Shown here: in pieces, positions 1 to 24,269 of the stretch
How positions within the stretch are numbered: position 1 is the stretch's first letter
How the letters are laid out: each line of letters starts with the position of its first letter
Source: Solirubrobacterales bacterium
Lineage (GTDB): Bacteria; Actinomycetota; Thermoleophilia; Solirubrobacterales; Solirubrobacteraceae
Length of the DNA: 32,613 bases
Reading direction: 5' to 3'
Assembly: GCA_027451345.1 (NCBI GenBank)
Contig: DAIDJO010000126.1
Span: forward strand, 1-32,613
Made by a program: the position numbers and the translations under genes
The notes under the pieces: generated by a model
The model's input: the letters and a program-made list of their open reading frames with translations, nothing else
Databases searched by the model: none
Told to the model about the DNA's origin: nothing

Positions 1-1173
1 ATGGGCACCGACCTGCGCCACACGCCCGTCGTGGGCGGCGAGGCGGGGTATCCGGACCTGGTCGTGCGTCCCGACCTCTCGACGATGGTGACCCTGCCGT
101 GGGAGCCGGGCGTCGCCTGCTGCCTGGCCAACCTCGAGCCCGCCGACCCGGACACGCCGATCTGCGACCCGCGCGGCGCCCTGGCCCGCGCGGTCGCGAC
201 CGTCGGCGAGCTCGGCTTCGAGCCGATCGTCGGGCCGGAGCTCGAGTTCTTCCTCGTCGTGCGCGATCCGGCCGCCCCGAACGGCATCCGCCGCAGCGTC
301 GACAACCTGAGCATGGTCTACACGGTCGGCCCGCTGGCCGACCCGAACGGCCTCGTCCGCCGGATGACCGAGCAGCTCGCCGCCATCGGGCTGCACGTCT
401 TCGCCGTCAACCACGAGTTCATGAACTCGCAGTACGAGATCAACCTCCGCCATTCGGGGGCGCTCGACGCGGCCGACCGGGCGTTCCGGTTGAAGTCCGC
501 CGTCAAGGACATCGCCGCTCAGCACGGGCTGCACGCGACGTTCATGGGCAAGCCGTTCAACGACCAGGGCGGGTCGGGCACCCACCTGCACCTGTCGCTC
601 AACCGTGACGGCGCCAACGCCTTTGCCGATCCGAACGGGGACCACGGGGTGACGGCGGAGCTCGGGCACTTCACCGCCGGGCTGATCGCCCACGCCCCGG
701 CGCTGATGGCGTTCCTCAACCCGACCGTCAACGCGTATCGGCGGCTGCAACCTGACTCGCTCGCTCCCACCCATGCCAACTGGGGCTTCGACAACCGGGC
801 GAGCTTCGTGCGGATCCCGCCGGAGCGCGGCGGCGCCACCCGCATCGAGCTGCGCGTCGGCGACGGGTCGGCCAACCCGTACCTCGGCATCGCGGCCGTC
901 CTGCTGGCCGGCGCCGACGGCGTCCGGCGGCGGCTCGCCCCACCGGCCCCCGTGAGCGGCGACGCCTACCGCGCCGACCCTGACCTGATCGGCCCCGCGC
1001 TGCCGACCTCGCTCGACGAGGCGCTGACGGCGCTGCGTGACGACGCGGTCCTGCGTGAGGGCCTCGGCGACGCGATCGTCGAGACGTTCCTGGCCATGAA
1101 GGGCTTCGAGCTCGAGCGTCACCGCGCCTGGGTCTCGGACTGGGAGATCAGCGAATACCTGCACCACCTCTAG
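1..1173 (+). CDS. Glutamine synthetase-like (gamma-glutamyl-amide/amine) ligase, 5' end outside window
   Basis: Type I glutamine-synthetase fold ligase. It would use ATP to join glutamate to ammonia or, more likely here, to an amine. Visible motifs are the GPELEFF metal site (about residues 78-84), NHEFMNSQYEINL, KPFNDQGGSGTHLHLSL with the HxH metal site, NPTVNAYRRL with APTHANWGFDNR for ATP, and RIELRVGDGSANPYL. The 390 residues begin at the second half of the N-terminal beta-grasp domain. Family members are usually about 440-460 aa, so some 60 residues probably lie upstream and the ATG at base 1 is probably internal. It heads an operon with a P450, an extradiol-type dioxygenase, an aldehyde dehydrogenase and an amino-acid/amine permease. 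This favours a catabolic gamma-glutamylating enzyme (as in aniline, isopropylamine, polyamine or ethanolamine use) over the housekeeping GlnA. The family is certain; the substrate is inferred. Confidence 0.9.
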   Translation: MGTDLRHTPVVGGEAGYPDLVVRPDLSTMVTLPWEPGVACCLANLEPADPDTPICDPRGALARAVATVGELGFEPIVGPELEFFLVVRDPAAPNGIRRSVDNLSMVYTVGPLADPNGLVRRMTEQLAAIGLHVFAVNHEFMNSQYEINLRHSGALDAADRAFRLKSAVKDIAAQHGLHATFMGKPFNDQGGSGTHLHLSLNRDGANAFADPNGDHGVTAELGHFTAGLIAHAPALMAFLNPTVNAYRRLQPDSLAPTHANWGFDNRASFVRIPPERGGATRIELRVGDGSANPYLGIAAVLLAGADGVRRRLAPPAPVSGDAYRADPDLIGPALPTSLDEALTALRDDAVLREGLGDAIVETFLAMKGFELERHRAWVSDWEISEYLHHL

Positions 1174-1185
1174 GAGCGAGCCCCG

Positions 1186-2403
1186 ATGTCCGTAACGAGC
1201 GACTTCATCGACCTCTCCGACCACGACAACTTCGTCGACGCCGTTCCCCACGAGGCGTTCGCGCGGTTGCGCCACGAGGACCCCGTGCACTGGAACCCGG
1301 AGCCCGCGGGACGCGGCTTCTGGGCAGTGACGCGGTACGAGGACATCCGCTCCGTGCACCGCACCCCGGAGGTCTTCTCCTCCGAGATCGGCGGCACCTC
1401 GCTCGAGGATCTCGAGCCCGAGCACATCGAGGCGCGCAAGTCGATGATCGACATGGACCCGCCACGGCACGACGAGCTGCGCGCGCTCGTCAACCGCCGG
1501 TTCACCCCGCGGGCCGTCGGGGTCTGGGAAGAGCAGGTGCGCAACGTGGTTCGCCAGGTGCTCGACACGGCGCTGCCGAAGGGCGAGTTCGACTTCGTGC
1601 ATGAGGTCGCCTCGGAGATCCCGATGCAGGTCTTCGCCGAGATCCTCGGGGTGCCCCAGGAGGAGCGTCGGGAGATCATCGAGATCGGTGACCGCCTGCT
1701 CGGCAACGCCGACCCGGAGTACGCCCACGACGGCGACGACGACGCGCACCGCCACCTGCCGTTCTCGAGCCCCGCAGCGCTCGACATGTTCGCGTTCGGC
1801 CGCCGGATCGCGGAGGAGCGCCGCCACAGCTCGCGGGAGGACATCATGAGCGACCTGGTGCGGGCCGGCCTGACCCAGCGCGAGATGGACGTGTACTTCG
1901 TGCTGCTGGCCACCGCCGGCAACGAGACGACGCGGCACACGATCAGCCACGGGCTGATCGCCCTCTGTGAGCACCCGCAGGAGCGCCGCCGGCTGCGCGA
2001 GAACTACGCGGAGCTCGGCCGGACGGCCGCCGAGGAGATGCTGCGCTGGGCCACCCCGGTCCACCACTTCCGGCGAACCGCGGCCGTCGACACGGTGCTG
2101 GGCGGCCGGGAGATCCACGCCGGAGACAAGGTCACGACCTGGTTCGTGTCCGGCAACCGGGACGAGAGCGTGTTCGCGGAGCCGATGCGCTTCGACGTCG
2201 GGCGGACGCCGAACCCGCACATGACCTTCGGCCCCGGTGGGATCCACCATTGCCTCGGCGCGCACCTCGCGAAGATGGAGGTCCGGCTCACGTTCGAGGA
2301 TCTGCTCTCGCGCGGCGTCGAGCTCGAGCTGGCCGGTCCGCCCGAGCGGCTGCGCTCGAACTTCTTCAACGGCATCAAGCGCGTTCCGGTGCGGGTGCGC
2401 TGA
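1186..2403 (+). CDS. Cytochrome P450 (CYP124/125/142-like)
   Basis: Soluble bacterial class I cytochrome P450, a haem-thiolate monooxygenase that needs a ferredoxin and reductase, neither of which lies nearby. The 405 residues match the usual bacterial length. The I-helix oxygen-activation motif AGNETT is at 244-249, the K-helix ExxR pair is E284/R287, and the haem loop FGPGGIHHCLG is at 348-358 with Cys356 as axial ligand. The loop has one residue more between Phe and Cys than the common FGxGxHxCxG form; this longer form occurs in CYP125 and CYP124 lipid/steroid hydroxylases. An AGGAG ribosome site lies 9 nt before the ATG, and the gene starts 12 nt after the ligase stop, so the two are co-transcribed. 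In this operon it probably hydroxylates the pathway substrate, possibly an aromatic ring. The substrate cannot be read from sequence. Confidence 0.95.
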   Translation: MSVTSDFIDLSDHDNFVDAVPHEAFARLRHEDPVHWNPEPAGRGFWAVTRYEDIRSVHRTPEVFSSEIGGTSLEDLEPEHIEARKSMIDMDPPRHDELRALVNRRFTPRAVGVWEEQVRNVVRQVLDTALPKGEFDFVHEVASEIPMQVFAEILGVPQEERREIIEIGDRLLGNADPEYAHDGDDDAHRHLPFSSPAALDMFAFGRRIAEERRHSSREDIMSDLVRAGLTQREMDVYFVLLATAGNETTRHTISHGLIALCEHPQERRRLRENYAELGRTAAEEMLRWATPVHHFRRTAAVDTVLGGREIHAGDKVTTWFVSGNRDESVFAEPMRFDVGRTPNPHMTFGPGGIHHCLGAHLAKMEVRLTFEDLLSRGVELELAGPPERLRSNFFNGIKRVPVRVR

Positions 2404-3341
2404 TGATCGAGCTGCACCGGATCGACCATGTCGGCCTGCGGGTGGCCGACCTCGCCGAGGCGACGGCGCGGTGGTGCACCCAGTTCGGCCTGCACGTCCG
2501 CGAGCGCCGGGCCGACACGGTGAGGCTCGCCTGCGACGACGAGCCCTGCGCGCTCGAGCTGATCGCCGGCGCGCCCGCGGGCCTGCACCACGTGGCCTAC
2601 GAGCTCGCACCCACCTGCACGATCGATCAGGCGTGCGAGCACCTCGAGCGGCAGGGGGCGGCCGTCGCCGCGCGCGCCGGCCGCCTCGACACCATGGATG
2701 CCGACGGCAACGCGATCCAGCTGCTCGCCCACCGCGAGCCGGCGTCGCGCCTGGTCGCCCACGCCCGTCCCGCGGGCCACGCCGTCCCGGGGCACCCGCG
2801 CAAGCTCGGCCACGTGAACTTCCTCACCGGCAACCTCGAGGACCAGGTCCGCTTCTACACCGAGACGCTCGGGATGCGGCTGACCGACTGGCTCGGCGAG
2901 GACGGCGTGTGGTTCCACGTCAACTCCGACCACCACGTGATGGCGCTGATTCGAACCCAGCCGCCCCAACCCCACTTTCACCACCTCGCCTTCGACGTCG
3001 TCGACGTCGGCCAGATGCGCCTCGCGCTCGACCACCTCGGCCGCCACGGGCGGTGGCTCGGCTGGGGCCCGACGCGGCACGGCGTCGGCGGCAACATCGC
3101 CTCGTACGTGCGGATCGTCGAGGAGGAGTGCTTCGTCGAGCTGTACTGCGACATGGAGCAGCTGCAGGCCGATCACCGGCCGCGTCGCTGGCCGGACGAC
3201 CGCTTCTCCTCCAACACGTGGGGCCCGCTGCCGCCCCGGTCCTACTTCCGCTTCGACCAGGCGGCGATCGACTCCGAGCGCGAGAGCCTCGAGATGCTCG
3301 GGACGCCGCTGCCACCCGCGCCGGCTCAGGAGGCCGTATGA
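2403..3341 (+). CDS. VOC-family extradiol-type ring-cleavage dioxygenase
   Basis: 312-residue two-domain vicinal-oxygen-chelate protein of the type I extradiol catechol dioxygenase class. Such enzymes open catechol rings next to the diol using Fe(II) or Mn(II). The N-terminal domain starts IDHVGLRVADL (about residue 6) and the catalytic C-terminal domain starts LGHVNFLTGNLEDQVRFYTETLG. The expected 2-His-1-Glu metal site is present: His137 (GHVNF), His193 or His194 (HFHHLAF) and Glu246 (CFVELYCDM). The layout resembles homoprotocatechuate and dihydroxybiphenyl dioxygenases. The ATG at 2403 overlaps the P450 stop by 1 nt; an upstream in-frame start at 2250 would run deep inside the P450 gene and is unlikely. 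A semialdehyde dehydrogenase two genes on supports a meta-cleavage route. A glyoxalase-like isomerase role cannot be excluded. Confidence 0.85.
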   Translation: MIELHRIDHVGLRVADLAEATARWCTQFGLHVRERRADTVRLACDDEPCALELIAGAPAGLHHVAYELAPTCTIDQACEHLERQGAAVAARAGRLDTMDADGNAIQLLAHREPASRLVAHARPAGHAVPGHPRKLGHVNFLTGNLEDQVRFYTETLGMRLTDWLGEDGVWFHVNSDHHVMALIRTQPPQPHFHHLAFDVVDVGQMRLALDHLGRHGRWLGWGPTRHGVGGNIASYVRIVEEECFVELYCDMEQLQADHRPRRWPDDRFSSNTWGPLPPRSYFRFDQAAIDSERESLEMLGTPLPPAPAQEAV

Positions 3342-4141
3342 CGCTGCAGGGCTACACCGTCCCGCGCACGCCCGAGGGCCGTGCCAGCCTCGTCCCCGCG
3401 CCCCCGTGGCACTACGTCGGTGACTTCCTCGTCGTCGACTTCCACGCGGACCCGGCCGCGGCCACCTCGCTGCTGCCCGAGGGGCTGGAACCGCACCCCG
3501 ACCCCGGGCGCTGTGCGGCCGTGTTCGTCGACTGGCAGTCCTGCTCGGAGAGCGGCGACGAGCTGACGGACCCGGCGCGCTCGCAGTACCGGGAGTGCTA
3601 CCTCGTCGTCAGCGGACTGCTCGACGGCCAGCCGGTGACCACCTGCCCGTTCATCTGGGTCGACCAGGACTTCGCCATGGCCCGCGGGTGGATCCAGGGC
3701 TATCCGAAGAAGCTCGGGGCGGTCTGGATGACCCGCGCCTTCCAGCTCGATGCGACGGCCTCCCCCGGCATCCACGCCGGCTCGCGCTTCGGCGCGACCT
3801 GCTCGGCGCGCGGCCGCGAGCTCGCGCGGGCAACGATCACGCTCGAGCGGGAGAGCGAGACCGGTTCCGTCCACACCGATCCCCCCCTCGTCAACGTCCG
3901 CCACTTCGCCCGGCTCGCGGCGGGACGCCACGCCGAGCCGCAGGTCCACGAGCTGGTGCGGGCGCGCAGCCGCGACCGCAGCGTCTCCCCGGTCTGGGAG
4001 GGCGCGGCCACGCTCGAGCTCTTCCCCGCCCCCGGCGAGGAGCACACGCTGCTCGCTCCCGTGAGCATCGCCCGCGGCTACCGCTTCACGTTCGCCTACA
4101 CGGTGGACGACCTCGAGACCGTGCGGGAGTACGTGGGATGA
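3338..4141 (+). CDS. Acetoacetate decarboxylase-family protein
   Basis: 267-residue member of the acetoacetate decarboxylase (ADC) fold. The family uses a Schiff-base lysine with a pKa-lowering neighbour lysine to decarboxylate beta-keto acids; some relatives act as aldolases, dehydratases or cyclases. The Lys-Lys pair is present as GYPKKLGAVWM (Lys124-Lys125). The preceding WIQGYP segment and the length fit the family. An AGGAGG ribosome site (3328-3333) lies 4 nt before the ATG, which overlaps the dioxygenase stop by 4 nt. Between an extradiol-type dioxygenase and a hydroxymuconate-type aldehyde dehydrogenase it may process a ring-cleavage product, taking the place of a 4-oxalocrotonate decarboxylase or hydratase. 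That role is inferred. No acetone/butanol genes lie nearby to suggest true acetoacetate decarboxylase. Confidence 0.85.
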   Translation: MTLQGYTVPRTPEGRASLVPAPPWHYVGDFLVVDFHADPAAATSLLPEGLEPHPDPGRCAAVFVDWQSCSESGDELTDPARSQYRECYLVVSGLLDGQPVTTCPFIWVDQDFAMARGWIQGYPKKLGAVWMTRAFQLDATASPGIHAGSRFGATCSARGRELARATITLERESETGSVHTDPPLVNVRHFARLAAGRHAEPQVHELVRARSRDRSVSPVWEGAATLELFPAPGEEHTLLAPVSIARGYRFTFAYTVDDLETVREYVG

Positions 4142-5604
4142 GTGGCGGAGCCCACACCGCAGTGGCCACGGTCGCCGGTCACGAGGTCTGCACCGATCAC
4201 TGGATCGGCGGCGAGCGGGTCCCGAGCCCCGAGCGCTTCGACGTGATCACCCCGATCGACGGCAGCGTGATCGCCGAGGTGGCGGCCGGTGGGGAACGGG
4301 AGGCGGATCTGGCCGTGCGGGCCGCGCACGAGGCCGCCGCCGGCTGGGCGGGGCTCGGCGCCGCCGGCCGGGCGGCGCTCCTGCACCGCCTCGCCGACCT
4401 GATCGACGCCAACGTCGAGCGACTCGCCGCCGTCGAGTGCGCGGACATGGCGATGCTGCTCGAGTCGCTGCGGCTGCGCGTGATCCACCGGGCGGCGGCG
4501 AACTTCCGCAACTACGCCGATCTGGCCGTCGCCTACGAGGAGCGCGACTGGCACTCAAAGGGCACGTGGAACCGCGTTCAGCGGATGCCGGCCGGCCCGG
4601 CGGCGGTGATCACACCGTGGAACGCGCCATTCATGCTCTCCACCTGGAAGGTGGCTCCCGCCCTCGCCGCCGGCTGTCCGGTGGTGCTCAAGCCCGCCGA
4701 GTGGTCCCCCCTCTCCTGCTCGCTGCTCGCCGAGCTCACGCGGGCGGCGGGCTTTCCTCCCGGCGTGTTCAACGTGCTGCAGGGCGTCGGTGAACAGGTC
4801 GGCGCGGCGCTCGTCGGGCACCCGCTCCTGCGCCGGATCTCCTTCACCGGGTCGCCCGAGACGGCGCGCCACATCGGCGTCGCGGCCGCCCGCAACCTCG
4901 TGCCCTTCACCGGCGAGCTCGGTGGCAAGGGCCCGCTGATCGTCTTCGACGACGCGGATCTCGACGCGGCCGCCGCCAAGGCCGCAGGCCAGTACGACGA
5001 CGCCGGCCAGGTCTGTCTGGCCGGGACCCGGCTGCTCGTCCAGGAGAGCATCCGCGAACCGTTCCTCGAGCGCTTCCACGCCGCGGTCGACCGGCACGTG
5101 CTCGGGGACCCGCGCGAGCCGGAGACGACGGTCTCCCCGCTCATCCATCCCGACCATCTCGAGCGCGTCGACGGGTTCGTCCAGCGGGCGATCGCCGCCG
5201 GGGACACGCTCGTGCGCGGGGGCCGGCGGCTCGAGGGGCTGCTCTACGAGCCGACCCTGTTCGAGCCGCGCTCCAACGACGCCGAGATCGTCCAGCGGGA
5301 GGTCTTCGGCCCGGTGCTGACGTTCCAGACCTTCGCCGACGAGGAGGAGGCGGTCGCCCTGGCCAACTCGACGCAGTACGGGCTCTCGGGGATCGTCTAC
5401 ACCGGCTCGATGGGCCGCGCGGACCGCGTCGGCCGAGCGGTGCGAGCCGGGATCGTGTGGGTGAACACGTTCCTGGTGCGCGACCTGACCGCCCCGTTCG
5501 GCGGCGTCGGCATCTCCGGCATCGGCCGGGAGGGCGGCAACTACGCGCTCGACTTCTACTCGGACCTGAAGACGCTGCAGGTGCTCGACGGCAGCGTCCG
5601 CTGA
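4138..5604 (+). CDS. Aldehyde dehydrogenase, 5-carboxymethyl-2-hydroxymuconate semialdehyde dehydrogenase (HpaE)-like
   Basis: 488-residue NAD(P)+-dependent aldehyde dehydrogenase. The oxyanion Asn162 (TPWNAPF), general base Glu260 (ELGGKGP) and nucleophile Cys293 (GQVCLAG) are all present, so the enzyme should be active. The C-terminal stretch RDLTAPFGGVGISGIGREGG followed by NYALDFYSDLK closely resembles HpaE/DhaS-type dehydrogenases, which oxidise the semialdehyde made by meta-cleavage of homoprotocatechuate. The start overlaps the ADC-family gene by 4 nt (ATGA). An earlier in-frame start at 3595 lies inside that gene and would add no recognisable domain. With the upstream dioxygenase it supports a meta-cleavage pathway. 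The exact aldehyde is not determined; betaine- or gamma-aminobutyraldehyde-type substrates remain possible. Confidence 0.92.
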   Translation: MSGGAHTAVATVAGHEVCTDHWIGGERVPSPERFDVITPIDGSVIAEVAAGGEREADLAVRAAHEAAAGWAGLGAAGRAALLHRLADLIDANVERLAAVECADMAMLLESLRLRVIHRAAANFRNYADLAVAYEERDWHSKGTWNRVQRMPAGPAAVITPWNAPFMLSTWKVAPALAAGCPVVLKPAEWSPLSCSLLAELTRAAGFPPGVFNVLQGVGEQVGAALVGHPLLRRISFTGSPETARHIGVAAARNLVPFTGELGGKGPLIVFDDADLDAAAAKAAGQYDDAGQVCLAGTRLLVQESIREPFLERFHAAVDRHVLGDPREPETTVSPLIHPDHLERVDGFVQRAIAAGDTLVRGGRRLEGLLYEPTLFEPRSNDAEIVQREVFGPVLTFQTFADEEEAVALANSTQYGLSGIVYTGSMGRADRVGRAVRAGIVWVNTFLVRDLTAPFGGVGISGIGREGGNYALDFYSDLKTLQVLDGSVR

Positions 5605-5645
5605 TCGGACACACGGAGAGGGACAACCGCAATGAGGAGAGGGAT

Positions 5646-7130
5646 ATGAGTGAGGGTTCCGCCCAGGGGCACCTGGGCGAGCGACGGTTGACGACGATCC
5701 ATGCCGTGGGTCAGTCGCTGGCGATCGGGCCGATGTTCTCGGCCGGTCTGCTCACCGGGCTGGTCGCGAGCGTGGCGGGGTACAGCACGCCGCTCTCGGT
5801 GCTGCTCGGCACGGTCGGGGCGATCTGCCTCGGCTACGTGATCTCGCTGTTCGCCCGCCGCTTCGCGGGCGCCGGCGCGATGTACGAGTACCTGGTGCAC
5901 GGCGCCCACCCCGGCGTCGGGGTCTTCGGGGCGGGGATCTACGGCCTCGGGATCCTCTTCCTCGGCGGCGGGGGCGTGTTCATCGCCAACGGCTTCCTGG
6001 CCCAGGCCTTCCTCGCCGACATCCACGTCAGCATCACCTGGTGGATCCTCGGCATCGTCGTGCTGCTGATCGCCGTCGGCCTCAACCACGTCGGGGTGCG
6101 CGTCGCGGTCCAGGGCGTGCTCGTGCTCGCCGGCATCTCGATGATCCCGTTCCTCATCCTGGCCGTCACGATCATCGCCAAGGGCGGCGCCGCCGGCAAC
6201 ACGCTCGCCGTGTTCGGCACCGGCCACAGCTCGTGGAACAGCGTCTTCCACGGCATCCTGTTCGCGGTCACGCTGTTCATCGGCTTCGAGGCCGCCGCCT
6301 CCCTCGGAGAGGAGGCGCGGGAGCCGCACCGGGCGATCCCGGTGGCGCTGATCGGCTCGGTCGCGCTCGCCGGCCTCTTCTATCTGCTCGTCACCTACGC
6401 GGGCGCGATCGGCTTCGGGGTCAAGGGCGCGGCCACCGCGTGGGTCGCCGATCCCTCGCCGATGGGGGCGCTGGCCCAGCAGTACGACGGGCACTGGCTG
6501 TCGGTGCTGATCGACCTCGTCGTGATGCTCGACTCGATCTCCGTCGCGCTCGCCTTCACGGTCGCCGGCTCCCGCGTGTTCTTCGCGCTCGGCCGGGACG
6601 GCCTGCTGCCGAGCTTCACCACCCGCGTCTCGACGCACGACACGCCGCTCGGGGGCAACCTGATCATCCTCGGCGCGGGCCTGCTCGCCGTCCTGCTCGG
6701 CGGGATCACCACGCTCGGCGACCTCGTCAAGCTGCCCAACAACATCGAGGCGTTCCAGATCAGCGCGGGAGTCGGCTCGTTCCTCATCGAGGCGGTCTAC
6801 GCGATGCTCGCGCTCGCCGCCTTCCGCATCGTCTGGCGGGACTGGAGCGGGGGCGCCCGGTTGTGGCGGCTCGCCGTCGCGGTCGTCGGCGTCGCGACGC
6901 CCGTGCTCGCGTACTACGGGTCACTGCATCCGTTCCCGCCCTACCCCGGGGATCTCAGCCTGATCATCGCCGGTGGCTCCGCCGTGGTGGTGCTCGCCTG
7001 GTTCCTGTACCTGCGCAGCGCGCACCCGGAGCGGATCGCCGCGGCGGCGCGGCACGCCGAGCAGCACCACGGCGTGCCGCCGCTCGACGAGTCCCTCTCC
7101 TTCCATCACGAGCCAGGCCTGCCGGCCTGA
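5646..7130 (+). CDS. APC-superfamily amino acid/amine permease
   Basis: 494-residue polytopic inner-membrane transporter of the amino acid-polyamine-organocation family, with about 12 hydrophobic segments. The first helix holds the glycine-rich substrate region (AIGPMFSAGLLTGLVASVAG). A second conserved block is FIGFEAAASLGEEAREPHRAIP (about residues 213-234), typical of APC transporters in which an acidic loop follows helix 6. A GAGGAGAGGG ribosome site lies just before the ATG. The gene starts 41 nt after the aldehyde dehydrogenase and is last in the operon. It probably imports the amine or amino acid degraded by the upstream enzymes. The substrate is inferred from context; no periplasmic binding protein is present, as expected for a secondary transporter. 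Confidence 0.9.
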   Translation: MSEGSAQGHLGERRLTTIHAVGQSLAIGPMFSAGLLTGLVASVAGYSTPLSVLLGTVGAICLGYVISLFARRFAGAGAMYEYLVHGAHPGVGVFGAGIYGLGILFLGGGGVFIANGFLAQAFLADIHVSITWWILGIVVLLIAVGLNHVGVRVAVQGVLVLAGISMIPFLILAVTIIAKGGAAGNTLAVFGTGHSSWNSVFHGILFAVTLFIGFEAAASLGEEAREPHRAIPVALIGSVALAGLFYLLVTYAGAIGFGVKGAATAWVADPSPMGALAQQYDGHWLSVLIDLVVMLDSISVALAFTVAGSRVFFALGRDGLLPSFTTRVSTHDTPLGGNLIILGAGLLAVLLGGITTLGDLVKLPNNIEAFQISAGVGSFLIEAVYAMLALAAFRIVWRDWSGGARLWRLAVAVVGVATPVLAYYGSLHPFPPYPGDLSLIIAGGSAVVVLAWFLYLRSAHPERIAAAARHAEQHHGVPPLDESLSFHHEPGLPA

Positions 7131-7141
7131 GAGCCCGACCC

Positions 7142-7177
7142 TTCACCGTCACGATTCCGCGGAATCGTGACGGTGAA
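7142..7177. repeat. Perfect 36-bp palindrome
   Basis: The left half TTCACCGTCACGATTCCG (7142-7159) is followed directly by its exact reverse complement (7160-7177). It lies 11 bp after the permease stop and 15 bp before the -10 box of the ThyA-like gene. As RNA it would form a stem of about 16 bp with a 4-nt loop but no U tract. It may be an actinobacterial U-less terminator for the operon, or an operator over the -35 region of the next gene. Confidence 0.9.
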
Positions 7178-7198: not shown

Positions 7199-7204
7199 GT
7201 GCCG

Positions 7205-7897
7205 GTGACCGAGACGACGCTCGACGCGGGCACGATCGGGGAGGCCTGGCTCGCCGTCGCCCGCCGGATCCTCGAGGACGGCGCCGCCTCGACCTACGAC
7301 GGCCGAGCGATCCTCGACCTGGAGCGGGTGACGCTGCGAATCGACGCCCCGGCCAGCGAGGACCCGGTGGTCCGCGAGCTCGGGGATCCCGAGCGACTCG
7401 CCTGGATGCACGCCAACTTCACCGACCACCGGCTCGTGGCGGAACTGGGCCACGCCCGCAGCTACGCGAGCCGGCTCCATGACTACGGCGGCACCGGCCG
7501 CGATCAGGTGCGCTGGGTGATCGAGCGGCTGCGCGCCGACCCGACGTCACGCTCGGCGACGATCACGACCTTCGAGCCGCTGCTCGACACGACCTACATC
7601 CCGTGCGTGAGCCTGCTCGACTTCTGGATCAGCGCGGGCCGGCTCACCGCGATGGTGTACGCCCACTCGATCGACTTCGGCACGAAGGGCTACGGCAACC
7701 TCGTCGAGCTCGCGCACCTGATGGAGCGGGTGGCGGAGGGCGTCGCGCGGCCGGTCGGGCCGCTCCACTTCGTGGTGAAGTCGGCGCACATCTACGACCC
7801 CGAGCTCGCGCGGATGCGCGAGGTGACGCGGGAACGAAAGAGCGGCCCGGGGGCGACGATCACGCCTGCTCTCGCGCGTAGCCTGCGCGCGAAATAA
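7205..7897 (+). CDS. Thymidylate synthase (ThyA)-family protein, atypical
   Basis: 230-residue protein of the thymidylate synthase/pyrimidine hydroxymethylase fold. Canonical members methylate dUMP with methylene-tetrahydrofolate. Visible matches are DQVRWVIERLRADPTSRSA (100-118, compare the TS DQ..-DP.SRR region), the nucleophile in YIPCVSLLDF (Cys134), the block YAHSIDFGTKGYGN (152-165) in place of the TS QRSxDxxLGxPFN, and SAHIYD (His195, Tyr197). The phosphate-binding Arg of RSxD is His154 here, while the equivalents of the dUMP-contacting Asp and Asn are kept (Asp157, Asn165). At 230 aa it is shorter than E. coli ThyA (264), close to archaeal forms. It stands alone, convergent with fabI. 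It could be a genuine divergent thymidylate synthase or a nucleotide hydroxymethylase. Fold confidence is good; activity is uncertain. Confidence 0.75.
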   Translation: MTETTLDAGTIGEAWLAVARRILEDGAASTYDGRAILDLERVTLRIDAPASEDPVVRELGDPERLAWMHANFTDHRLVAELGHARSYASRLHDYGGTGRDQVRWVIERLRADPTSRSATITTFEPLLDTTYIPCVSLLDFWISAGRLTAMVYAHSIDFGTKGYGNLVELAHLMERVAEGVARPVGPLHFVVKSAHIYDPELARMREVTRERKSGPGATITPALARSLRAK

Positions 7898-8120: not shown

Positions 8121-8900
8121 TCAGACCGCGGGAGCGCCGACGGCGTGAAAGCCGCCGTCAACGTGCACGATCTCCCCGGAGATCCCGCGCGAGAGGTCGG
8201 AGAGCAGGAAGCAGATCGGGCCGGCGACGACGCTCGGATCGTCGATGTCCCAGCCGAGCGGCGCCTGCTGCTGCCAGAGCGCGGCGAGCCGCTCGAAGCC
8301 CGGAATGCCACGGGCGGCAACGGTGCCGAGCGGCCCGGCGCTCACCAGGTTGACGCGGATGCCCTGGGCGCCAAGGTCGCGGGCGAGGTAGCGCGAGACG
8401 GACTCGAGCGCCGCCTTGGCCACGCCCATCCAGTCATAGATCGGCCAGGCCACCGACGCGTCGAAGTCGAGCCCGACAACGCTCGAACCCGCCGGCATCA
8501 GCGGGGCGAGGGCGGCGGCGAGCGCCTTCAGGGAGTACGCGCTCGTCTGGAAGGCGATCGCGGCGCTCTCCGCCGGTGCCGTCATGAACCGGCCGCCGAG
8601 GGCGTCCTCGGGGGCGAAGGCGATCGCGTGCAGCGCGCCGTCCACGCGCCCCCACCGGGAGCGGAGCTCTTCGGCCACCGCCTCGAGGTCCTCCGGGCGG
8701 TTGACGTCGAGCTCGAGCACCTCGACGGGGGTGTCGAGGCGCTGTGCCGCGCGCTCGGTCAGGCGACGGACCCGCCCGAAGCTCGTGAGCAGGACCTCCG
8801 CTCCCTCCGCCTGAGCGCGCTGGGCGACGTGGAAGGCCATCGACTCCTTGGTGATGACGCCCGTGATGAGCAGGCGCTTCCCGGCCAGCAGTCCCGCCAT
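8121..8900 (-). CDS. fabI: Enoyl-[acyl-carrier-protein] reductase, InhA-like
   Basis: 259-residue NADH-dependent enoyl-ACP reductase, the last reductive step of type II fatty-acid elongation. The dinucleotide-binding start is LLITGVITKESMAFHVA (compare InhA GIITDSSIAFHIA). The catalytic Tyr155-x6-Lys162 lies in WPIYDWMGVAKAALES, almost the InhA MPAYNWMTVAKSALES. The motif GLDFD at 143-147 matches the InhA segment with the substrate-gating Phe149. At the position of InhA Ser94 (VHSIGF) this protein has Ala92 (LHAIAF). It is the last gene of the fab operon, 22 nt after fabF. The close match to InhA points to Actinomycetota. Confidence 0.95.
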   Translation of the reverse strand: MAGLLAGKRLLITGVITKESMAFHVAQRAQAEGAEVLLTSFGRVRRLTERAAQRLDTPVEVLELDVNRPEDLEAVAEELRSRWGRVDGALHAIAFAPEDALGGRFMTAPAESAAIAFQTSAYSLKALAAALAPLMPAGSSVVGLDFDASVAWPIYDWMGVAKAALESVSRYLARDLGAQGIRVNLVSAGPLGTVAARGIPGFERLAALWQQQAPLGWDIDDPSVVAGPICFLLSDLSRGISGEIVHVDGGFHAVGAPAV

Positions 8901-8922
8901 CAGACGACCCGCTCGCGGTGGC

Positions 8923-10146
8923 TCACCCCTGTCCCCTGATCACGAGCGAGACGTTGTGTCCGCCGAACGCGAACGAGTTGGAGATCGCCGCTGGGGCGCC
9001 GCCGCCGGCGAGGACGAGCTCGCGGGCCACGCCGGGCACGTAGTCGAGGTCGAGCCCCTCATCCGGCACCTCGTAGTTGAGCGTCGGCGGGATGATCCGG
9101 TCGTTCAGCGCCTGCACGGTCGCCACCGCCTCGATCGCGCCGGCCGCCCCGAGCAGGTGGCCGGTCGCCGACTTGGTCGAGGAGACCGGGATCCGGTAGG
9201 CGTGCTCGCCGAGGGCGAGCTTCAGGGCCGCGGTCTCGGCCGCATCGTTGAGCTCGGTCGAGGTGCCGTGCGCATTGACATAGACGATCTCCGACGGCGT
9301 CAGCCCGGCGTCCTGGATGGCGAGCGTGATCGCCTGAGCCGCGGGGCGACCGGTGGGTTCGGGCGCGGTGAGGTGGTGGGCGTCCGAGGTCGACCCGTAG
9401 CCCGCGACCTCACCGAGGATGCGTGCGCCGCGGGACCTGGCCGCCTCGTACTCCTCGAGCACCAGCACCCCCGCGCCCTCGCCCATGATGAAGCCGTCGC
9501 GACGGGCATCGAACGGGCAGGAGACCCCGATCTTGGACAGGGCCGACATCGTGTTGAACGACCCGAAGCCGAAGTCCGTCAGGGTCGCCTCCGCACCACC
9601 GGCGACCACCGCATCCGCGTCCCCGTACTGGATCATGCGCGCCGCCAGGCCGATCGCGTGACCGCTCGAGGCACAGGCCGAGGCGACGGCGAAGGCCTGT
9701 CCCTGGATGCCGTGTCGCATCGAGACGGCGGCCGCCGCGGCGTTTGGCATGTACATCGGGATGCCGAGCGGGGAGATGCGCATCGCGCCCTTCTCGCGCA
9801 TCACGTCCAGGTTCGCCTGCACTGTGGTGAACCCACCGATGCCGGTGGCCATGATCAGGCCGATCCGCATCGGGTCGCACGGCGGGCCGTCCGACCAGCC
9901 GGCGTCGGCGATCGCCTCATCGGCGGCCACGACCGCGAACTGCGCGAACCGGTCGAGGCGGCGTGCCTCCTTCACCGAGAGGTGCGCCGCCGGATCGAAC
10001 TCGTCGCAGTAGCCGCCGGCCTGGCCGTCGCGGACGCTGACGCCGCTGATCCCCTGGGACCAGCGCTCATGCAGCGCACGCGCGCCCACCCCGAGCGGGG
10101 TGACCGCACCGATCCCGGTGATGACGGCTCGGCGCTTCTCAGGCAT
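8923..10146 (-). CDS. fabF: 3-oxoacyl-[acyl-carrier-protein] synthase II
   Basis: 407-residue condensing enzyme that extends acyl-ACP with malonyl-ACP. The Cys-His-His triad is complete: Cys158 (ASACASSG), His293 (NAHGTSTELND) and His330 (STKSATGHLLGAAG), with Lys325 also in place. The C-terminal FAFGGHN glycine loop is present. A GGAGA ribosome site lies upstream of the ATG (minus strand, 10146). It sits 30 nt downstream of acpP, the common acpP-fabF pairing. A Cys-His-His rather than Cys-His-Asn triad makes it FabF/FabB type, not FabH. Confidence 0.96.
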   Translation of the reverse strand: MPEKRRAVITGIGAVTPLGVGARALHERWSQGISGVSVRDGQAGGYCDEFDPAAHLSVKEARRLDRFAQFAVVAADEAIADAGWSDGPPCDPMRIGLIMATGIGGFTTVQANLDVMREKGAMRISPLGIPMYMPNAAAAAVSMRHGIQGQAFAVASACASSGHAIGLAARMIQYGDADAVVAGGAEATLTDFGFGSFNTMSALSKIGVSCPFDARRDGFIMGEGAGVLVLEEYEAARSRGARILGEVAGYGSTSDAHHLTAPEPTGRPAAQAITLAIQDAGLTPSEIVYVNAHGTSTELNDAAETAALKLALGEHAYRIPVSSTKSATGHLLGAAGAIEAVATVQALNDRIIPPTLNYEVPDEGLDLDYVPGVARELVLAGGGAPAAISNSFAFGGHNVSLVIRGQG

Positions 10147-10176
10147 GGCGTCTCCAGTCTGCCCGCCGACGGGCGT

Positions 10177-10422
10177 TCAGTTGGCGCGCTCGGTGATCAG
10201 GTCGACGGCCTCGCCGACGGTCTTGAGCTCCTTCATGTCCTCGCCCTTCAGCACGACGCCGTACTCGTCCTCGACGATCTGGGCGAGCTCGACGAGATCC
10301 AGGGAGTCGATGTCCAGATCCTCGAACGTCGCGTCGGGCGTGATCTCGCTGGCATCGGGGCCGAAGCTCGCCAGCGCCTCGGTGACGCGCTCCTGCACCT
10401 GCTCCTTGGTCACTGCACTCAT
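10177..10422 (-). CDS. acpP: Acyl carrier protein
   Basis: 81-residue acidic acyl carrier protein. Ser40 in DLDIDSLDLVEL is the 4'-phosphopantetheine site. Helices II and III (LVELAQIVEDEYGVVL, MKELKTVGEAVDLI) fit the family. I chose the ATG at 10422 because an AGAGGA ribosome site lies a few nt upstream and the length becomes standard; the open frame continues to 10485 but adds a basic, non-ACP-like tail. It lies between fabG and fabF in the fatty-acid operon and carries the growing acyl chain for the neighbouring enzymes. Confidence 0.97.
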   Translation of the reverse strand: MSAVTKEQVQERVTEALASFGPDASEITPDATFEDLDIDSLDLVELAQIVEDEYGVVLKGEDMKELKTVGEAVDLITERAN

Positions 10423-10465
10423 TCGTCTGATCCTCTTTCGTGTGGTTCTGCCGGCGGGCGAGCGG

Positions 10466-11233
10466 TCAGGCCGCGAGCCCGCCATCGACTGTAAGCACCG
10501 CGCCGGTCACGTAGCCGGCCTGCTGCGATACGAGGAAGCGTACGCAAGCGGCGACCTCCTCGGGCGTTCCCGCGCGCTTGGCCGGGATGGCGGCCAGCAG
10601 CTCCGGGCCGATCAGCTCCGCCGTCATGTCGGTGGCGATGAAGCCGGGGGCCACCGCGTTGATCGTGACGCCGCGGCGGGCCACCTCGACGGCCGCCGTG
10701 CGGGTGAACTGCACGAGCCCGGCCTTGGCGGCGGCGTAGTTGCTCTGCCCCGGGTTGGCGCGCAGGCCGCTGACCGACGCGATGTTGACGATCCGGCCGG
10801 TGCGGGCGCGCATCATCCCCTTCAGGGCCCGGCGCGTGAAGCGGAATGCGGCGGTGAGGTTCGTGTCGATCACGGCCTCCCACTCCTCGTCGGTGAGCGA
10901 CGGGGTCAGGTTGTCCCGCGTGATGCCGGCGTTGTTGACGAGGGCCAGCACGGGCCCGCCCAGCGCCGACTCGGCCGCCTCGAAGACCCGTTCGGGGGCG
11001 TCCGGTGCCGCCACGTCGCCCGCAACGGCGACGGCCCGGCCGCCCGCCCGCGTGATCTCGTCGACGACGCGATCCGCCGCCTCGGCGCCGGAGTGGTAGC
11101 CGACGGCAACGGCCCAGCCGTCGGCGGCGAGCCCGCGCGCGATGGCGGCTCCGATGCCGCGCGAGCCACCGGTGACGAGCGCGCAGCCCTCCGGCGGCCA
11201 CGCCCGCGGCGCGGCCGCGCCCGCGTCAGGCAC
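10466..11233 (-). CDS. fabG: 3-oxoacyl-[acyl-carrier-protein] reductase
   Basis: 255-residue short-chain dehydrogenase. It has the NADPH-binding TGGSRGIG loop (21-28), NNAG (100-103) and the catalytic Ser153, Tyr166, Lys170 (YAAAK). It would reduce 3-ketoacyl-ACP to 3-hydroxyacyl-ACP. Its start overlaps the fabD end by 8 nt, showing translational coupling. A 10-15-residue N-terminal extension before the first beta strand is slightly long for FabG; a later start is possible, but no alternative ATG is close. Operon position between fabD and acpP makes FabG more likely than a general SDR. Confidence 0.94.
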   Translation of the reverse strand: MPDAGAAAPRAWPPEGCALVTGGSRGIGAAIARGLAADGWAVAVGYHSGAEAADRVVDEITRAGGRAVAVAGDVAAPDAPERVFEAAESALGGPVLALVNNAGITRDNLTPSLTDEEWEAVIDTNLTAAFRFTRRALKGMMRARTGRIVNIASVSGLRANPGQSNYAAAKAGLVQFTRTAAVEVARRGVTINAVAPGFIATDMTAELIGPELLAAIPAKRAGTPEEVAACVRFLVSQQAGYVTGAVLTVDGGLAA

Positions 11234-12059
11234 TGAGCATCTCCACGTCCCTGAGCGTCCGCTTGACGAGGCCGGTGAGAACGCGGCCCGGACCGACCTC
11301 CACGAACCGGGTCACCCCCCGGGCGTGCAGTCCGAGCAGCACCTCGCGCCAGCGCACGGGCCCGGTGAGCGCTTCGACCAGACGGGCGCGGACATCATCG
11401 AACGGCTCGGCGGTCACGGCCGAGACGACGGTGGTGGCCGCCGGTCCCAGCTCGACGGCGGCGAGGGCCCGCTCGAACTCGGGCACGGCGGAGGCCATCA
11501 TCGGCGAGTGGAAGGCGCCGGTCACCGGCAGGATCATCGCCCGCAGCCCGAGCGCGCGCGCCGTCTCCTCGGCGGCCGGGAGCGCGACGCGGGGCCCGGA
11601 CAGCACGACCTGCTGCGGTGAGTTGTCATTGGCGACCGAGAGGCCGTGCGGGGTGGCGACCTCGAGCGCACGCTCGGCCGCCTCGGCGCCGAGCAGCGCG
11701 ATCATGCCACCGTCGCCCGCCGTCTCCCCCGCCCGCTGCATCAGGCGGCCGCGGAGCGCGACGAGCTCGAGCCCGTCCCGCTCGGTCAGCACGCCGGCGG
11801 CAACGAGCGCGCCGAGCTCGCCGAGCGAGTGGCCGGCTACGAACTCGTGCAGCGGCCGGCCGAGCTCCCACCACCCGGCGATGCTCGCGCAGAAGATGGC
11901 GGGCTGCGCGTAGGCGGTGCCGTCGTTGACCCGGTCGAACGGGTCCTCGCCCACCACCGCGGCGGCGAGCTCGAGCAGGTCGGGGCGCACGCGCGCCACG
12001 AGGTCGCGCATGTCGTCGGTCTGGCTCCCCTGTCCGGGAAAGAGAAGTGCCGTGGTCAT
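11226..12059 (-). CDS. fabD: Malonyl-CoA:ACP transacylase
   Basis: 277-residue transacylase that moves malonyl from CoA to ACP. It has the N-terminal GQGSQ loop (9-13), the nucleophile Ser78 in GHSLGE, Arg103 (RGRLMQ) for the malonyl carboxylate and His184 (GAFHSP) as the catalytic His. Length is slightly below E. coli FabD (309). It is the first gene of the fab operon. A TAGGGT -10 box lies 8 nt before its ATG, suggesting that the operon mRNA is leaderless. Confidence 0.96.
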   Translation of the reverse strand: MTTALLFPGQGSQTDDMRDLVARVRPDLLELAAAVVGEDPFDRVNDGTAYAQPAIFCASIAGWWELGRPLHEFVAGHSLGELGALVAAGVLTERDGLELVALRGRLMQRAGETAGDGGMIALLGAEAAERALEVATPHGLSVANDNSPQQVVLSGPRVALPAAEETARALGLRAMILPVTGAFHSPMMASAVPEFERALAAVELGPAATTVVSAVTAEPFDDVRARLVEALTGPVRWREVLLGLHARGVTRFVEVGPGRVLTGLVKRTLRDVEMLSA

Positions 12060-12162: not shown

Positions 12163-13446
12163 TCAGGCGGTCCGGCGCAGCGGGACGACGTTGCCCGTGG
12201 GGGCCGGCGAGCGGAACGACCGCGGCGCGGCGAGCCGGTCCTGCAGCCAATCGAGCGCCATCGGCACGCCGGCGACGGCGCCGCTCAGGTGGTCGAAGCC
12301 GCCGCGGGTGACGCGCAGCGTGACGTCGACCCCGAGCGCCTGCCAGTCGTCGAGCAGCTGCTCGGAGTGTTCGAAGGCGACGATCTGGTCGTGTCGTGCG
12401 TGGTGCAGCAGGACCGGCGCGGCGGGCGCCAGGGTCCCGAGCCGGTTCTCCCGCAGGCGGCGGCGCCAGGACGGAAGTTCGAGCACGTTCGGGCTCGTCA
12501 GCTCATCCACGCGGGCGAAGCGGGGGCCGCGGACGGCCGCCTGGAGGATGTTGGTGAGCCGCAGGTCGTCGATCGCGCGGACCCCGTCCCCGACGAGATA
12601 CGGCTCGAGCTCGAGCTCGGGGTAGGCGGCGGCGTAGCCGATCGCCCCGTACGCGAGGAAGAAGGAGAAGAAGCTTCCCTCGAGCGTCGGGCCCGCGAGC
12701 TCGATGTCGGCGGCGGCCGCCCCGGCGGCCACGCCCGCCAGGTCGAGCTCGGGAGCGTAGAGGGGCTGCAGCTGCGCGGCCCACGCCGCCGCGGTGCCTC
12801 CCTCCGAATAGCCCATGACCCCGACGGGTGCCTCGGCGGAGAGGGCGGCCTGCGCGACCTGACGGCTCGCGCGGATCGCGTCCAGGACGTTGCACCCGAG
12901 CGCGCGACCGACCATGTACGCGTGGTCACCGGCGGTCCCGAGCCCCTGGTAGTCGGAGATCACGACCGCACAGCCCCGGCCGAGCGCGAGCGCCATCAGT
13001 CCCGCCTCCCAGTCACGGCCGGTGGCCAGGAGCCGCGACGGGGCGGCGGCGTCACCGATCCCGTGCGTGCCCGCCGCGTAGGCGACGAGCGGAACCGGCG
13101 TGGTGCGTGCGCCGACGGGCAGGAGCAGCGTTCCCGAGACGGCGGTCGGCTCGCCGACCGCCCCGGTCGAGCGGTGGAGCAGGCGCCAGGCGTGTGCGCG
13201 CAGCCGTACACCGGGGACGAGATACGCGTCCATCGGCTCGGCCCGGATCAGCTCACCGGGAGCGAGCGCGGAGAGGTTCGCGGGAGCGTCGTAGAAGCCC
13301 GGGGTCCACGGCACGCGACGGCGCGGGGTGGAGAGCAGCGCGAGGTGGGTGCGGGTGCTGCGCACGCGCTGCGGGGCCCGGGCCACCTGGGCTCCGGTGG
13401 TGAGGGCGAGGCCCCCGGCGGTTCGTGCGATGTCGACCACGCTCAT
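12163..13446 (-). CDS. Alpha/beta-hydrolase, secretory-lipase (LIP) family-like
   Basis: About 427 residues from the ATG at 13446. It shows an alpha/beta-hydrolase core: a strand VPLVAYAAGTHG (118-129), CAVVISDYQGLGTAGDHAYMVG, and the nucleophile elbow MGYSEGG with Ser214 in GxSxG. Near the C-terminus come HARHDQIV (Asp candidate) and GGFDHLSG (His candidate). This order matches the secreted lipase family best known from fungi and mycobacteria/nocardiae. The segment around 5-25 is only weakly hydrophobic, so export is uncertain. The open frame extends to a GTG at 13545; I prefer 13446 because GAGAGAG lies 10 nt upstream and the added N-terminus has no recognisable feature. It lies alone between fbiC and the fab operon. 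The substrate is unknown. Confidence 0.75.
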   Translation of the reverse strand: MSVVDIARTAGGLALTTGAQVARAPQRVRSTRTHLALLSTPRRRVPWTPGFYDAPANLSALAPGELIRAEPMDAYLVPGVRLRAHAWRLLHRSTGAVGEPTAVSGTLLLPVGARTTPVPLVAYAAGTHGIGDAAAPSRLLATGRDWEAGLMALALGRGCAVVISDYQGLGTAGDHAYMVGRALGCNVLDAIRASRQVAQAALSAEAPVGVMGYSEGGTAAAWAAQLQPLYAPELDLAGVAAGAAAADIELAGPTLEGSFFSFFLAYGAIGYAAAYPELELEPYLVGDGVRAIDDLRLTNILQAAVRGPRFARVDELTSPNVLELPSWRRRLRENRLGTLAPAAPVLLHHARHDQIVAFEHSEQLLDDWQALGVDVTLRVTRGGFDHLSGAVAGVPMALDWLQDRLAAPRSFRSPAPTGNVVPLRRTA

Positions 13447-13517
13447 GACGTCAGCGCTCTCTCTTCGCCATGAACCGATGATCGACCTGCGCGGCGCATT
13501 CGTGAGTTCTGTCACAA

Positions 13518-23318: not shown

Positions 23319-24269
23319 TCAGCCACCGGCCTCGATCATGCGCACGACGCGGCGTTGCCGATGTGAACACTCGGCGGCGATGGCGATCCGCATCGCCGCC
23401 AAGCACTCGCGCCCGGGACACGGATTGGGCCGGCCCCCGGCCACCAGGTCGAGGAAGGCGCTCATCTGCGCGACCAGCGCGTCGTGGAAGCGCTCTCGAT
23501 AGTCCGCGTAGCGTTCGTCCCCGATCGTGATCGAGCCGACACCCCCGACGACCTCCGCGCGCATCAGGTACCCGGCCGTGTCCTGACGGCTGCCGCGGAT
23601 CGTCACCGGCAGCCCGTCACTCATTCTCAGGACGGTCGCGGTCGTATCGACGTCGCCAAGGGCGTCGAGGAACTCACAGGGACCGCGCCGCGCGGAGACG
23701 GTGACCACGTCCGCCGCCTCCTCGCCGGTGAGCCAGCGCGCGAGGTCGAAGTCGTGGATGTGGAGATCCAGGAACATGCTTCCGGATACGGCGGCGAACG
23801 CCTCGCTCGGCGGGTCGCGATCATGCGATGTGAGCGTGACCGACTGCAGGGCGCCCAACTCCCCGCCGGCGATGGCTGCCCGCAGGCGCATCAGGTCCGG
23901 GTCAAAGCGGCGGTCGAAGCCCACCTGGAGGGGAACGCCGGCGCGCTCCGCCTCCTCGACAAGGGCCTCGGCGTCCTCCAGCGTGCCGGCGATCGGCTTC
24001 TCGCAGAACAGCGGCACCCGCAGACCGAGGGATGCGCGGATGTCCTGCGCGTGGCGCGCGGTCGCACTCGCGATGACGACCGCGTCGGGCGAGGCCGCCA
24101 GCATCTCGGTCACCGTGCCAACCGCGTCGGCACCCGCCTGCGCGGCCGCGTCCCGCCCCCACTCGGCTCGCGAACTGCCGATCCCCAGCCACGTCACTCG
24201 TGGATCGGCCGCGAGAGCGCTCGCGTGCAGGCGAGCGATCTTGCCGCTGCCCAGGACGACGATCCTCAT
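23319..24269 (-). CDS. Gfo/Idh/MocA-family dehydrogenase (second inositol-type dehydrogenase)
   Basis: 316-residue NAD(P)-dependent oxidoreductase. The Rossmann start is VVLGSGKIARLH (4-15). The conserved CEKPIAG gives Lys91, and FLDLHIHDFD gives Asp168 and His172, equivalent to the Lys97-Asp172-His176 catalytic set of B. subtilis IolG. It keeps these at the same residue numbers as the iolG product two genes upstream, so the two are paralogs. It is the last gene of the inositol cluster, with a 4-nt overlap with the iolE-like gene. It may oxidise another inositol stereoisomer (scyllo- or chiro-) or a sugar, or reduce a keto-inositol. The substrate is not determined. Confidence 0.88.
   Translation of the reverse strand: MRIVVLGSGKIARLHASALAADPRVTWLGIGSSRAEWGRDAAAQAGADAVGTVTEMLAASPDAVVIASATARHAQDIRASLGLRVPLFCEKPIAGTLEDAEALVEEAERAGVPLQVGFDRRFDPDLMRLRAAIAGGELGALQSVTLTSHDRDPPSEAFAAVSGSMFLDLHIHDFDLARWLTGEEAADVVTVSARRGPCEFLDALGDVDTTATVLRMSDGLPVTIRGSRQDTAGYLMRAEVVGGVGSITIGDERYADYRERFHDALVAQMSAFLDLVAGGRPNPCPGRECLAAMRIAIAAECSHRQRRVVRMIEAGG

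Follow-up and report, generated by a model that had tools for sequence, protein, structure and literature searches.

In the 4-hydroxyphenylacetate/homoprotocatechuate (hpa/hpc) system, the homoprotocatechuate route proceeds through dehydrogenase, isomerase, decarboxylase, isomerase, hydratase and aldolase steps to pyruvate and succinic semialdehyde (PMC12718150, available part). In the aniline and 1-naphthylamine systems (atd, tdn, npa), a glutamine synthetase (GS)-like organic amide synthetase stands beside a class I amidotransferase (GAT)-like protein, and ring oxygenation comes next (PMC11335346, available part). Here we describe an operon that shares features with both. It belongs to an uncultured Solirubrobacterales bacterium (assembly GCA_027451345.1), and its last six genes open contig DAIDJO010000126.1, the 32,613-nucleotide stretch of DNA that was analysed (the window). 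We put the probability at roughly 0.55 that its ten genes serve the glutamylation, ring cleavage and homoprotocatechuate-type degradation of an arylethylamine.

The likeness to hpa/hpc extends to the order of hydroxylation, 2,3-extradiol cleavage, an HpaE-like aldehyde dehydrogenase (ALDH) and an HpaG-like FAH protein, and some loci of the operon also carry HpaB/HpaC-like genes. The operon differs in adding a GS-like ligase and a P450 and in having an ADC-fold protein for HpaH and HpaI; no HpaF-like gene occurs among the operon proteins scanned. Its probable substrates are common to the tyramine/dopamine catabolon of Pseudomonas putida U, which reportedly passes through 3,4-dihydroxyphenylacetate and is said to lose the amine before ring cleavage, whereas the operon is predicted to keep the amine, protected by glutamate. 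With the putrescine pathway (PuuA/PuuC/PuuD/PuuP), in which PuuP is an APC permease, it shares gamma-glutamyl protection, an APC permease and a predicted common intermediate, gamma-glutamyl-aminobutyraldehyde; in the operon's scheme this aldehyde would come from ring cleavage and not from PuuB, and the amidotransferase is of the GMP-synthase type, not PuuD. Compared with atd, tdn and npa, the operon has a P450, ferredoxin and reductase for the Rieske dioxygenase, an Hpa-type lower pathway and, in some loci, a pyridoxal phosphate (PLP) decarboxylase, and no Rieske family was detected among the operon proteins scanned. ADC-fold proteins accompany meta-cleavage in the phenol cluster of Saccharolobus solfataricus as well, where ADC-like Sso1221 and Sso1222 are induced with catechol meta-cleavage and are proposed aldolases; there the substrate is phenol, hydroxylation is of the toluene-4-monooxygenase type, and no ligase or P450 is named in the available part of the source (PMC7820114). 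An earlier reading of the window (the original prediction) had not recognised, from described pathways, the combination of a P450 in place of a multi-component dioxygenase with an ADC-fold protein in a meta-cleavage operon; for the ADC-fold protein, Sso1221/Sso1222 are a precedent. No published description of the whole gene set was found in the open-licence literature, which is a weak negative.

The complete operon consists of ten tightly packed genes, encoding in order FAH, ferredoxin, ferredoxin reductase, amidotransferase, ligase, P450, VOC dioxygenase, ADC-fold protein, ALDH and permease. The features of the operon and its flanks, on the window and on a second contig of the same genome (C50, 15,877 bases), are as follows.

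C50 10203-11642, minus strand: PLP decarboxylase, divergent from the operon (Pfam)
C50 11617-12603, minus strand: LysR regulator, divergent from the operon (Pfam)
C50 about 12648-13517, plus strand: FAH-family hydrolase (Pfam)
C50 13543-13731, plus strand: ferredoxin, 62 amino acids (family call made on the copies in Conexibacter and S. canus)
C50 13740-14975, plus strand: ferredoxin reductase (Pfam)
C50 14972-15691, plus strand: class I amidotransferase, GAT (Pfam)
C50 15688, plus strand: likely GTG start of the ligase (in-frame N-terminus)
Window <1-1173, plus strand: GS-like gamma-glutamyl amine ligase (predicted, GoaS-like), cut at its 5' end (Pfam PF00120 Gln-synt_C, 343.8 bits)
Window 1186-2403, plus strand: cytochrome P450, CYP125/CYP124-like (Pfam PF00067 p450, 82 bits; nearest solved structures)
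Window 2403-3341, plus strand: two-domain VOC (type I) extradiol dioxygenase, distantly HpaD-like (Pfam Glyoxalase, 72 bits)
Window 3338-4141, plus strand: ADC-fold protein, proposed hydratase-aldolase, Sbi_00515-like (Pfam ADC, 182 bits)
Window 4138-5604, plus strand: HpaE-like ALDH (Pfam Aldedh, 483 bits; TIGR02299 best model)
Window 5646-7130, plus strand: APC-superfamily permease, presumed amine or amino acid importer (Pfam AA_permease_2, 111 bits)
Window 7142-7177, no strand: perfect inverted repeat directly 3' of the operon (read in the sequence)

The original prediction reported six co-directional genes, the first cut at its 5' end. Re-reading of the coordinates bears out the spacing (a gap of 12, overlaps of 1, 4 and 4, and a gap of 41 nucleotides), and the cut in the ligase is real, as base 1 of the window is base 1 of its contig (C126). 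Family calls of the window genes were consistent between Pfam and NCBIfam. The source genome comprises 3.31 Mb in 133 contigs and is 85% complete. In relatives, additional genes precede the ligase, and the C50 end was located via the amidotransferase and reductase proteins of a Conexibacter sp. S30A1 locus (L059). The last ten bases of C50 are the first ten of the window, and its tail codes in frame for the missing N-terminus of the ligase, the first 60 codons. Reading upstream of base 1, as had been proposed, thus supplied a LysR regulator, an amidotransferase and a ferredoxin; the statement that no amidase or ferredoxin gene is visible holds inside the window but fails for C50, where ferredoxin, ferredoxin reductase and amidotransferase genes precede the ligase.

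The gene set is conserved well beyond this genome. In the source family, 21 of 146 genomes have matches to the VOC protein that score at least 280 bits, at 23 places in total, and the match after these scores 106. Of 399 genomes in a class-wide sample, 55 contain a match with an E value of 1e-60 or lower. GTDB species contigs yielded 35 VOC loci, 34 of them covering most of the protein's length with 43-80% identity, in Solirubrobacterales, Rubrobacter, other Thermoleophilia, Thermomicrobium, Deinococcales, Agromyces, Leucobacter and Sciscionella. These 35, nine further non-duplicate loci (11 of the 20 loci from a second source were omitted as duplicates of the GTDB contig loci) and the own genome form a comparison set of 45 loci, in which one weak match (L088) was retained and counted as a miss. 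Loci were counted by tblastn with score thresholds, as a crude gene caller had missed genes; many of the contigs are short, so gene absences are weak. The VOC protein is present in 44 of the 45 loci, the GS-like ligase and ADC-fold protein in 37 each, the ALDH in 36, the P450 and FAH protein in 35 each, the APC permease in 26 (two kinds, 12 and 14), the amidotransferase in 24, the ferredoxin reductase in 15, the PLP decarboxylase in 12 and an HpaB-like protein in 8. In 13 of 44 loci, and in the own genome too, a ferredoxin gene separates the FAH gene from the reductase gene; in L044 and, weakly, in L065 it adjoins the FAH gene where no reductase matched. A LysR or GntR regulator is linked to the operon in many loci. 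Because the same set, often in the same order, recurs in loci of three phyla (Actinomycetota, Thermomicrobiota and Deinococcota), the co-occurrence of the six families exceeds chance. The PLP decarboxylase in 12 of the 45 loci speaks for an arylethylamine that derives from an amino acid.

Additional genes accompany some loci. An ArgE/DapE-type deacylase stands with the operon in 9 of the 45 (L042, L045-L048, L060, L063, L070 and L077), and a histone deacetylase (HDAC)-like protein, by eye a relative of acetylpolyamine amidohydrolases, in 7 (L047, L071-L073 and L076-L078); either could act as the remover of an acyl or glutamyl group. In the Agromyces, Leucobacter and Sciscionella loci (L082, L084 and L087), a VOC relative (43-45%) is accompanied by a PucR-type regulator and a divergent GS-like gene; these loci perhaps represent a sister pathway.

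A strong clue to the ring-cleavage step comes from cousin clusters that were found via the ADC-fold protein. Among 15 plasmid records with an ADC match, eleven were examined, of which five contain the cluster (L099, L102, L103/L107, L106 and L124) and six do not (L100, L101, L104, L105, L125 and L126), so the ADC fold alone is no marker of the pathway. The cousin clusters comprise the following genes.

Streptomyces canus: P450, GS, ferredoxin, reductase, ADC, ALDH, dioxygenase, FAH and TetR, continuing after TetR with P450, ferredoxin, LLM oxidoreductase and APC permease
S. lunaelactis pSLUN1: permease, GS, MarR, ADC, PuuD-like, PuuC-like ALDH, HpaE-like ALDH, dioxygenase, FAH and PLP decarboxylase
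Novosphingobium EMRT-2: 2Fe-2S protein, ALDH, FAH, ADC, ALDH, GS, P450 and dioxygenase
Two Embleya records (tblastn): P450, GS, ADC, PuuD, PuuC (split across two frames in one record), ALDH, LigB, FAH, ferredoxin and reductase

No P450 match was obtained in the S. lunaelactis pSLUN1 stretch (tblastn). In S. canus, S. lunaelactis and Novosphingobium the dioxygenase is of the LigB fold (HpaD_Fe, 127-130 bits against a cut-off of 316), and in the two Embleya records the LigB-fold enzyme was assigned by similarity. LigB queries had no match in the 44 VOC-type loci or in the own genome's two contigs, and the VOC query had none in the five cousins. One step is thus filled by VOC enzymes and by unrelated LigB enzymes, and the occurrence of two unrelated extradiol enzymes in one gene set is strong evidence for ring cleavage of a homoprotocatechuate-like catechol. 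The gene set, its conservation, the active-site residues described below and this gene replacement are direct observations. In two of the three annotated clusters, the LigB-fold dioxygenases (L106 13794-14651 and L107 13387-14361) are named catechol 1,2-dioxygenase, and these names look mistaken.

The S. lunaelactis copy is plasmid-borne, with condensation-domain, aromatase/cyclase and SARP genes nearby, which brings in a biosynthetic explanation: glutamyl-amide, P450 and extradiol enzymes would make a pyrroline- or pyridine-type natural product, like L-DOPA 2,3-dioxygenase in lincomycin-type pathways. The ADC-fold MppR is also biosynthetic (189 bits), and the MppR equivalog TIGR04460 gives the ADC-fold protein of the window 206 bits against a cut-off of 380. 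The APC importer, HpaE-like ALDH, HpaG-like FAH protein and the linked LysR or GntR regulators in many loci look catabolic, and although nonribosomal peptide synthetase and polyketide synthase genes were not searched systematically, we regard a biosynthetic role as highly improbable.

The residues of the VOC enzyme agree with ring cleavage. All of the aligned relatives (44 of 44) have H137, H194 and E246, presumably metal ligands, and H178, H226 and Y235, presumably catalytic, as in homoprotocatechuate 2,3-dioxygenase. The same six occur in two annotated HpaD proteins and in nine family paralogues; because the paralogues keep them too, they point to an extradiol-type site and not to a substrate. 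An AlphaFold model (predicted local distance difference test score 79, falling below 50 at 221-231, 271-281 and 309-312) matched, in Foldseek, Novosphingobium 3b59 (E 5e-21), homoprotocatechuate 2,3-dioxygenase (HPCD; 1.7e-18), with a TMq of about 0.7, and AphC, which was solved with 4-ethylcatechol. In a tree that keeps 23 of the 44 cluster rows, the cluster VOC proteins form one group, separate from the two annotated HpaD proteins and the paralogues. The intact extradiol-type dioxygenase of the original prediction is borne out by the residues and fold matches, and a non-ring-cleaving VOC protein was rejected on these grounds and on that of the LigB replacement.

The ligase shows the residue losses described for organic-amine ligases. 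The Asp50 and Glu327 positions, which in glutamine synthetase belong to the ammonium site and the flap, are changed in all 40 aligned cluster ligases, the window's included (36 of the window type and four from plasmid records, with one short copy left out), and are kept, as FDGSS and GYEAP, in the genome's own GlnA (L109) and also in a second GlnA. Organic-amine ligases lack Asp50' and the Glu flap residue, there called Glu357, according to the available part of the 1-naphthylamine ligase paper (PMC11335346). The type III glutamate-ammonia ligase model TIGR03105 remained below its cut-off of 469.6 bits both with the 5'-cut protein (295 bits) and with a full-length Conexibacter copy (309 bits). 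Sequence comparison supports a predicted gamma-glutamyl organic amine ligase (GoaS-like), as originally proposed; a housekeeping glutamine synthetase was rejected because of the lost ammonium-site residues, and the genome has a separate GlnA. The amidotransferase keeps GLCYG and HPE motifs, presumably the usual nucleophile Cys and the His-Glu of its class. By analogy with what is said of AtdA2 and NpaA2, it could reverse unwanted glutamylation (PMC11335346, available part).

The P450 scores 428 bits against PDB 8vxi, a CYP125 ancestor, and contains AGNET and the heme-Cys stretch FGPGGIHHCLG, the latter read from the translation. Its place in the pathway, suggested by the original prediction, is strengthened by the ferredoxin and reductase genes on C50. 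HpaB and P450 occur together in four loci, and the P450 may not make the catechol, which weighs against our scheme and counts for another side-chain amine degraded via Hpa-type cleavage, such as phenethylamine, octopamine or a methoxylated phenethylamine. The P450 would then be a para-hydroxylase or O-demethylase, and HpaB, where present, would make the catechol; the Foldseek match to AphC is compatible with such a substrate. However, HpaB is found in only 8 of the 45 loci, and elsewhere the P450 would need more than one step, although short contigs weaken this absence; we consider this alternative unlikely.

In the lower pathway, the ADC-fold protein is closest to the structures 4zbo and 6eej (4zbo, E 2e-79), which we take to be Sbi_00515, an aldolase-dehydratase with K122 as its Schiff-base Lys and Y252 as an active-site Tyr. 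K124 and Y254 of the window protein align with K122 and Y252 of 4zbo, 6eej differing at that Tyr; K124 is present in 37 of 37 relatives and Y254 in all 35 with a letter there. Neither HpaI nor HpaH reached its cut-off in any of the 21 operon-bearing genomes, and a simple member of the hpa pathway was rejected on this ground. The ALDH, with GQVC and ELGG motifs, has the HpaE equivalog TIGR02299 as its best model.

The original prediction read these enzymes on the model of aniline breakdown. In an aniline-type scheme, an arylamine with its nitrogen on the ring would receive the glutamate, the P450 would stand in for the Rieske dioxygenase, and catechol, once freed, would follow ordinary meta-cleavage. 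The GS-like and GAT-like pair is as in aniline systems (PMC11335346, available part), and further matches of the ALDH are hydroxymuconic semialdehyde dehydrogenase (399 bits) and structures of aminomuconate semialdehyde dehydrogenase. Against this, Hpa models give the best fit both to the ALDH and to the LigB enzyme of the cousins, the FAH protein has HpaG as its highest-scoring function-specific model, behind a generic FAH model, the PLP decarboxylase (12 of 45 loci) and the PuuC and PuuD genes of three cousins misfit an arylamine, and one P450 hydroxylation alone does not convert an anilide into a catechol. The gene set is closer to homoprotocatechuate (4-hydroxyphenylacetate) breakdown, and we retain the aniline-type scheme as a rather improbable rival. 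The overall interpretation has stood for the ligase, dioxygenase, P450 and co-occurrence and has changed for the substrate class and the lower pathway; neither a failure of the families to co-occur nor a grouping of the dioxygenase with non-ring-cleaving VOC proteins and of the ligase with housekeeping GlnA was seen.

For homoprotocatechuate-type degradation of an arylethylamine, we infer each reaction, the order of steps and the substrate as follows. The permease would import the arylethylamine or its parent amino acid, from which the PLP decarboxylase can form the amine, and the ligase would join glutamate to it, giving a gamma-glutamyl amide. Served by the operon's ferredoxin and reductase, the P450 would hydroxylate the ring to a catechol, a role that an HpaB-like flavin hydroxylase may take in some relatives; the VOC dioxygenase would open the ring beside the diol, the HpaE-like ALDH would oxidise the resulting semialdehyde, and the HpaG-like FAH protein would decarboxylate and isomerise. 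The ADC-fold enzyme would act by the reverse reaction on a 2-oxo-3-enoate, hydrating and splitting it in one active site in place of HpaH and HpaI. From gamma-glutamyl-dopamine the products would be pyruvate and gamma-glutamyl-gamma-aminobutyraldehyde, which would enter the Puu route, where oxidation and glutamate removal, by PuuD or the operon's amidotransferase, would give gamma-aminobutyrate (GABA). The glutamate tag would block cyclisation of the amine onto the ring-cleavage semialdehyde, and it is chemically sensible because the product of L-DOPA 2,3-dioxygenase cyclises onto its own amine (PMC12311729, available part).

Tracing the chemistry by hand from gamma-glutamyl-dopamine does lead to pyruvate and the PuuC substrate (Puu steps from the available part of PMC10606097), and this product therefore predicts a second ALDH and a PuuD-like hydrolase. 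PuuC- and PuuD-like genes occur together in three of the five cousins, S. lunaelactis and both Embleya records, the PuuD model giving the S. lunaelactis protein 92 bits against a cut-off of 266. The S. lunaelactis PLP decarboxylase is matched best by two tyrosine decarboxylase models, at 129 bits (cut-off 905) and 125 bits (cut-off 299). In the own genome, a PuuD-like protein (42%) and a PuuC-like ALDH (48%) are both encoded away from the operon. A tyramine- or dopamine-like arylethylamine is our best guess for the substrate, the least certain part of the reading.

Several results weigh against this assignment. Equivalog scores fall short of their cut-offs for the VOC enzyme (HpaD TIGR02295, 96 against 321 bits), the ALDH (TIGR02299, 500 against 638) and the FAH protein (L050; HpaG TIGR02303, 219 against 276, with a generic FAH model higher at 266). 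Matches below cut-off were found for HpaI in 7 of the 21 genomes (182 bits in the own genome) and for HpaH in 4, and the sensitivity of the absence test is unproven because none of 14 control genomes passes either cut-off. The window-type PLP decarboxylase (L034) scores higher as a diaminobutyrate decarboxylase (211 bits) than as a tyrosine decarboxylase (78 bits), its nearest structures are mixed, and its gene is in only 12 of the 45 loci. The window operon is without PuuC and PuuD, and the stretches around the own genome's PuuC- and PuuD-like genes contain no operon partner match. GABA transaminase, a family with many paralogues, passes its cut-off in 1 of the 21 genomes, and the Agromyces, Leucobacter and Sciscionella loci have no ADC match (tblastn).

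Immediately beyond the operon, positions 7131-7175, which overlap the inverted repeat, fold at -24.6 kcal/mol, and the repeat is perhaps a transcript-end hairpin, without a T run after it. Directly after the operon is a thymidylate-synthase-like gene (7199-7897, plus strand; Pfam 54 bits, methanogen-type model 80 with a cut-off of 175), outside the conserved operon partners. Further genes noted in the window lie on the minus strand.

Window 8121-12059, minus strand: enoyl-ACP reductase-like protein and ketoacyl synthase (Pfam), a short open reading frame, and FabG-like and FabD-like proteins by eye; a probable fatty-acid synthesis cluster
Window 13576-15795, minus strand: 739-amino-acid protein that combines two stretches of radical SAM type with a C-terminal CofH region; a probable FbiC-like fusion for F420 cofactor synthesis
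Window 23319-32465, minus strand: two GFO/IDH/MocA dehydrogenases, KduI/IolB, PfkB kinase, a thiamine pyrophosphate enzyme and an ALDH; a probable myo-inositol breakdown cluster

The same gene set in distant bacteria, with one key enzyme swapped, points to a breakdown route that was not found described. More specifically, and tentatively, with odds a little short of even, the operon represents an undescribed aerobic route for arylethylamines, possibly derived from aromatic amino acids, in which the amine is kept as a gamma-glutamyl amide, an ADC-fold enzyme replaces HpaH and HpaI, the pathway joins that of putrescine, and VOC- and LigB-fold enzymes have independently come to fill the ring-cleavage step. 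If so, the cell would have a new means of mineralising biogenic aromatic amines, with the nitrogen protected by glutamate and not removed first, so that the ring is opened without cyclisation of the product and the route then merges with polyamine catabolism. It would also provide a physiological role for a subfamily of ADC-fold proteins, for a P450 that has a ferredoxin and a reductase of its own, and for this group of VOC enzymes.

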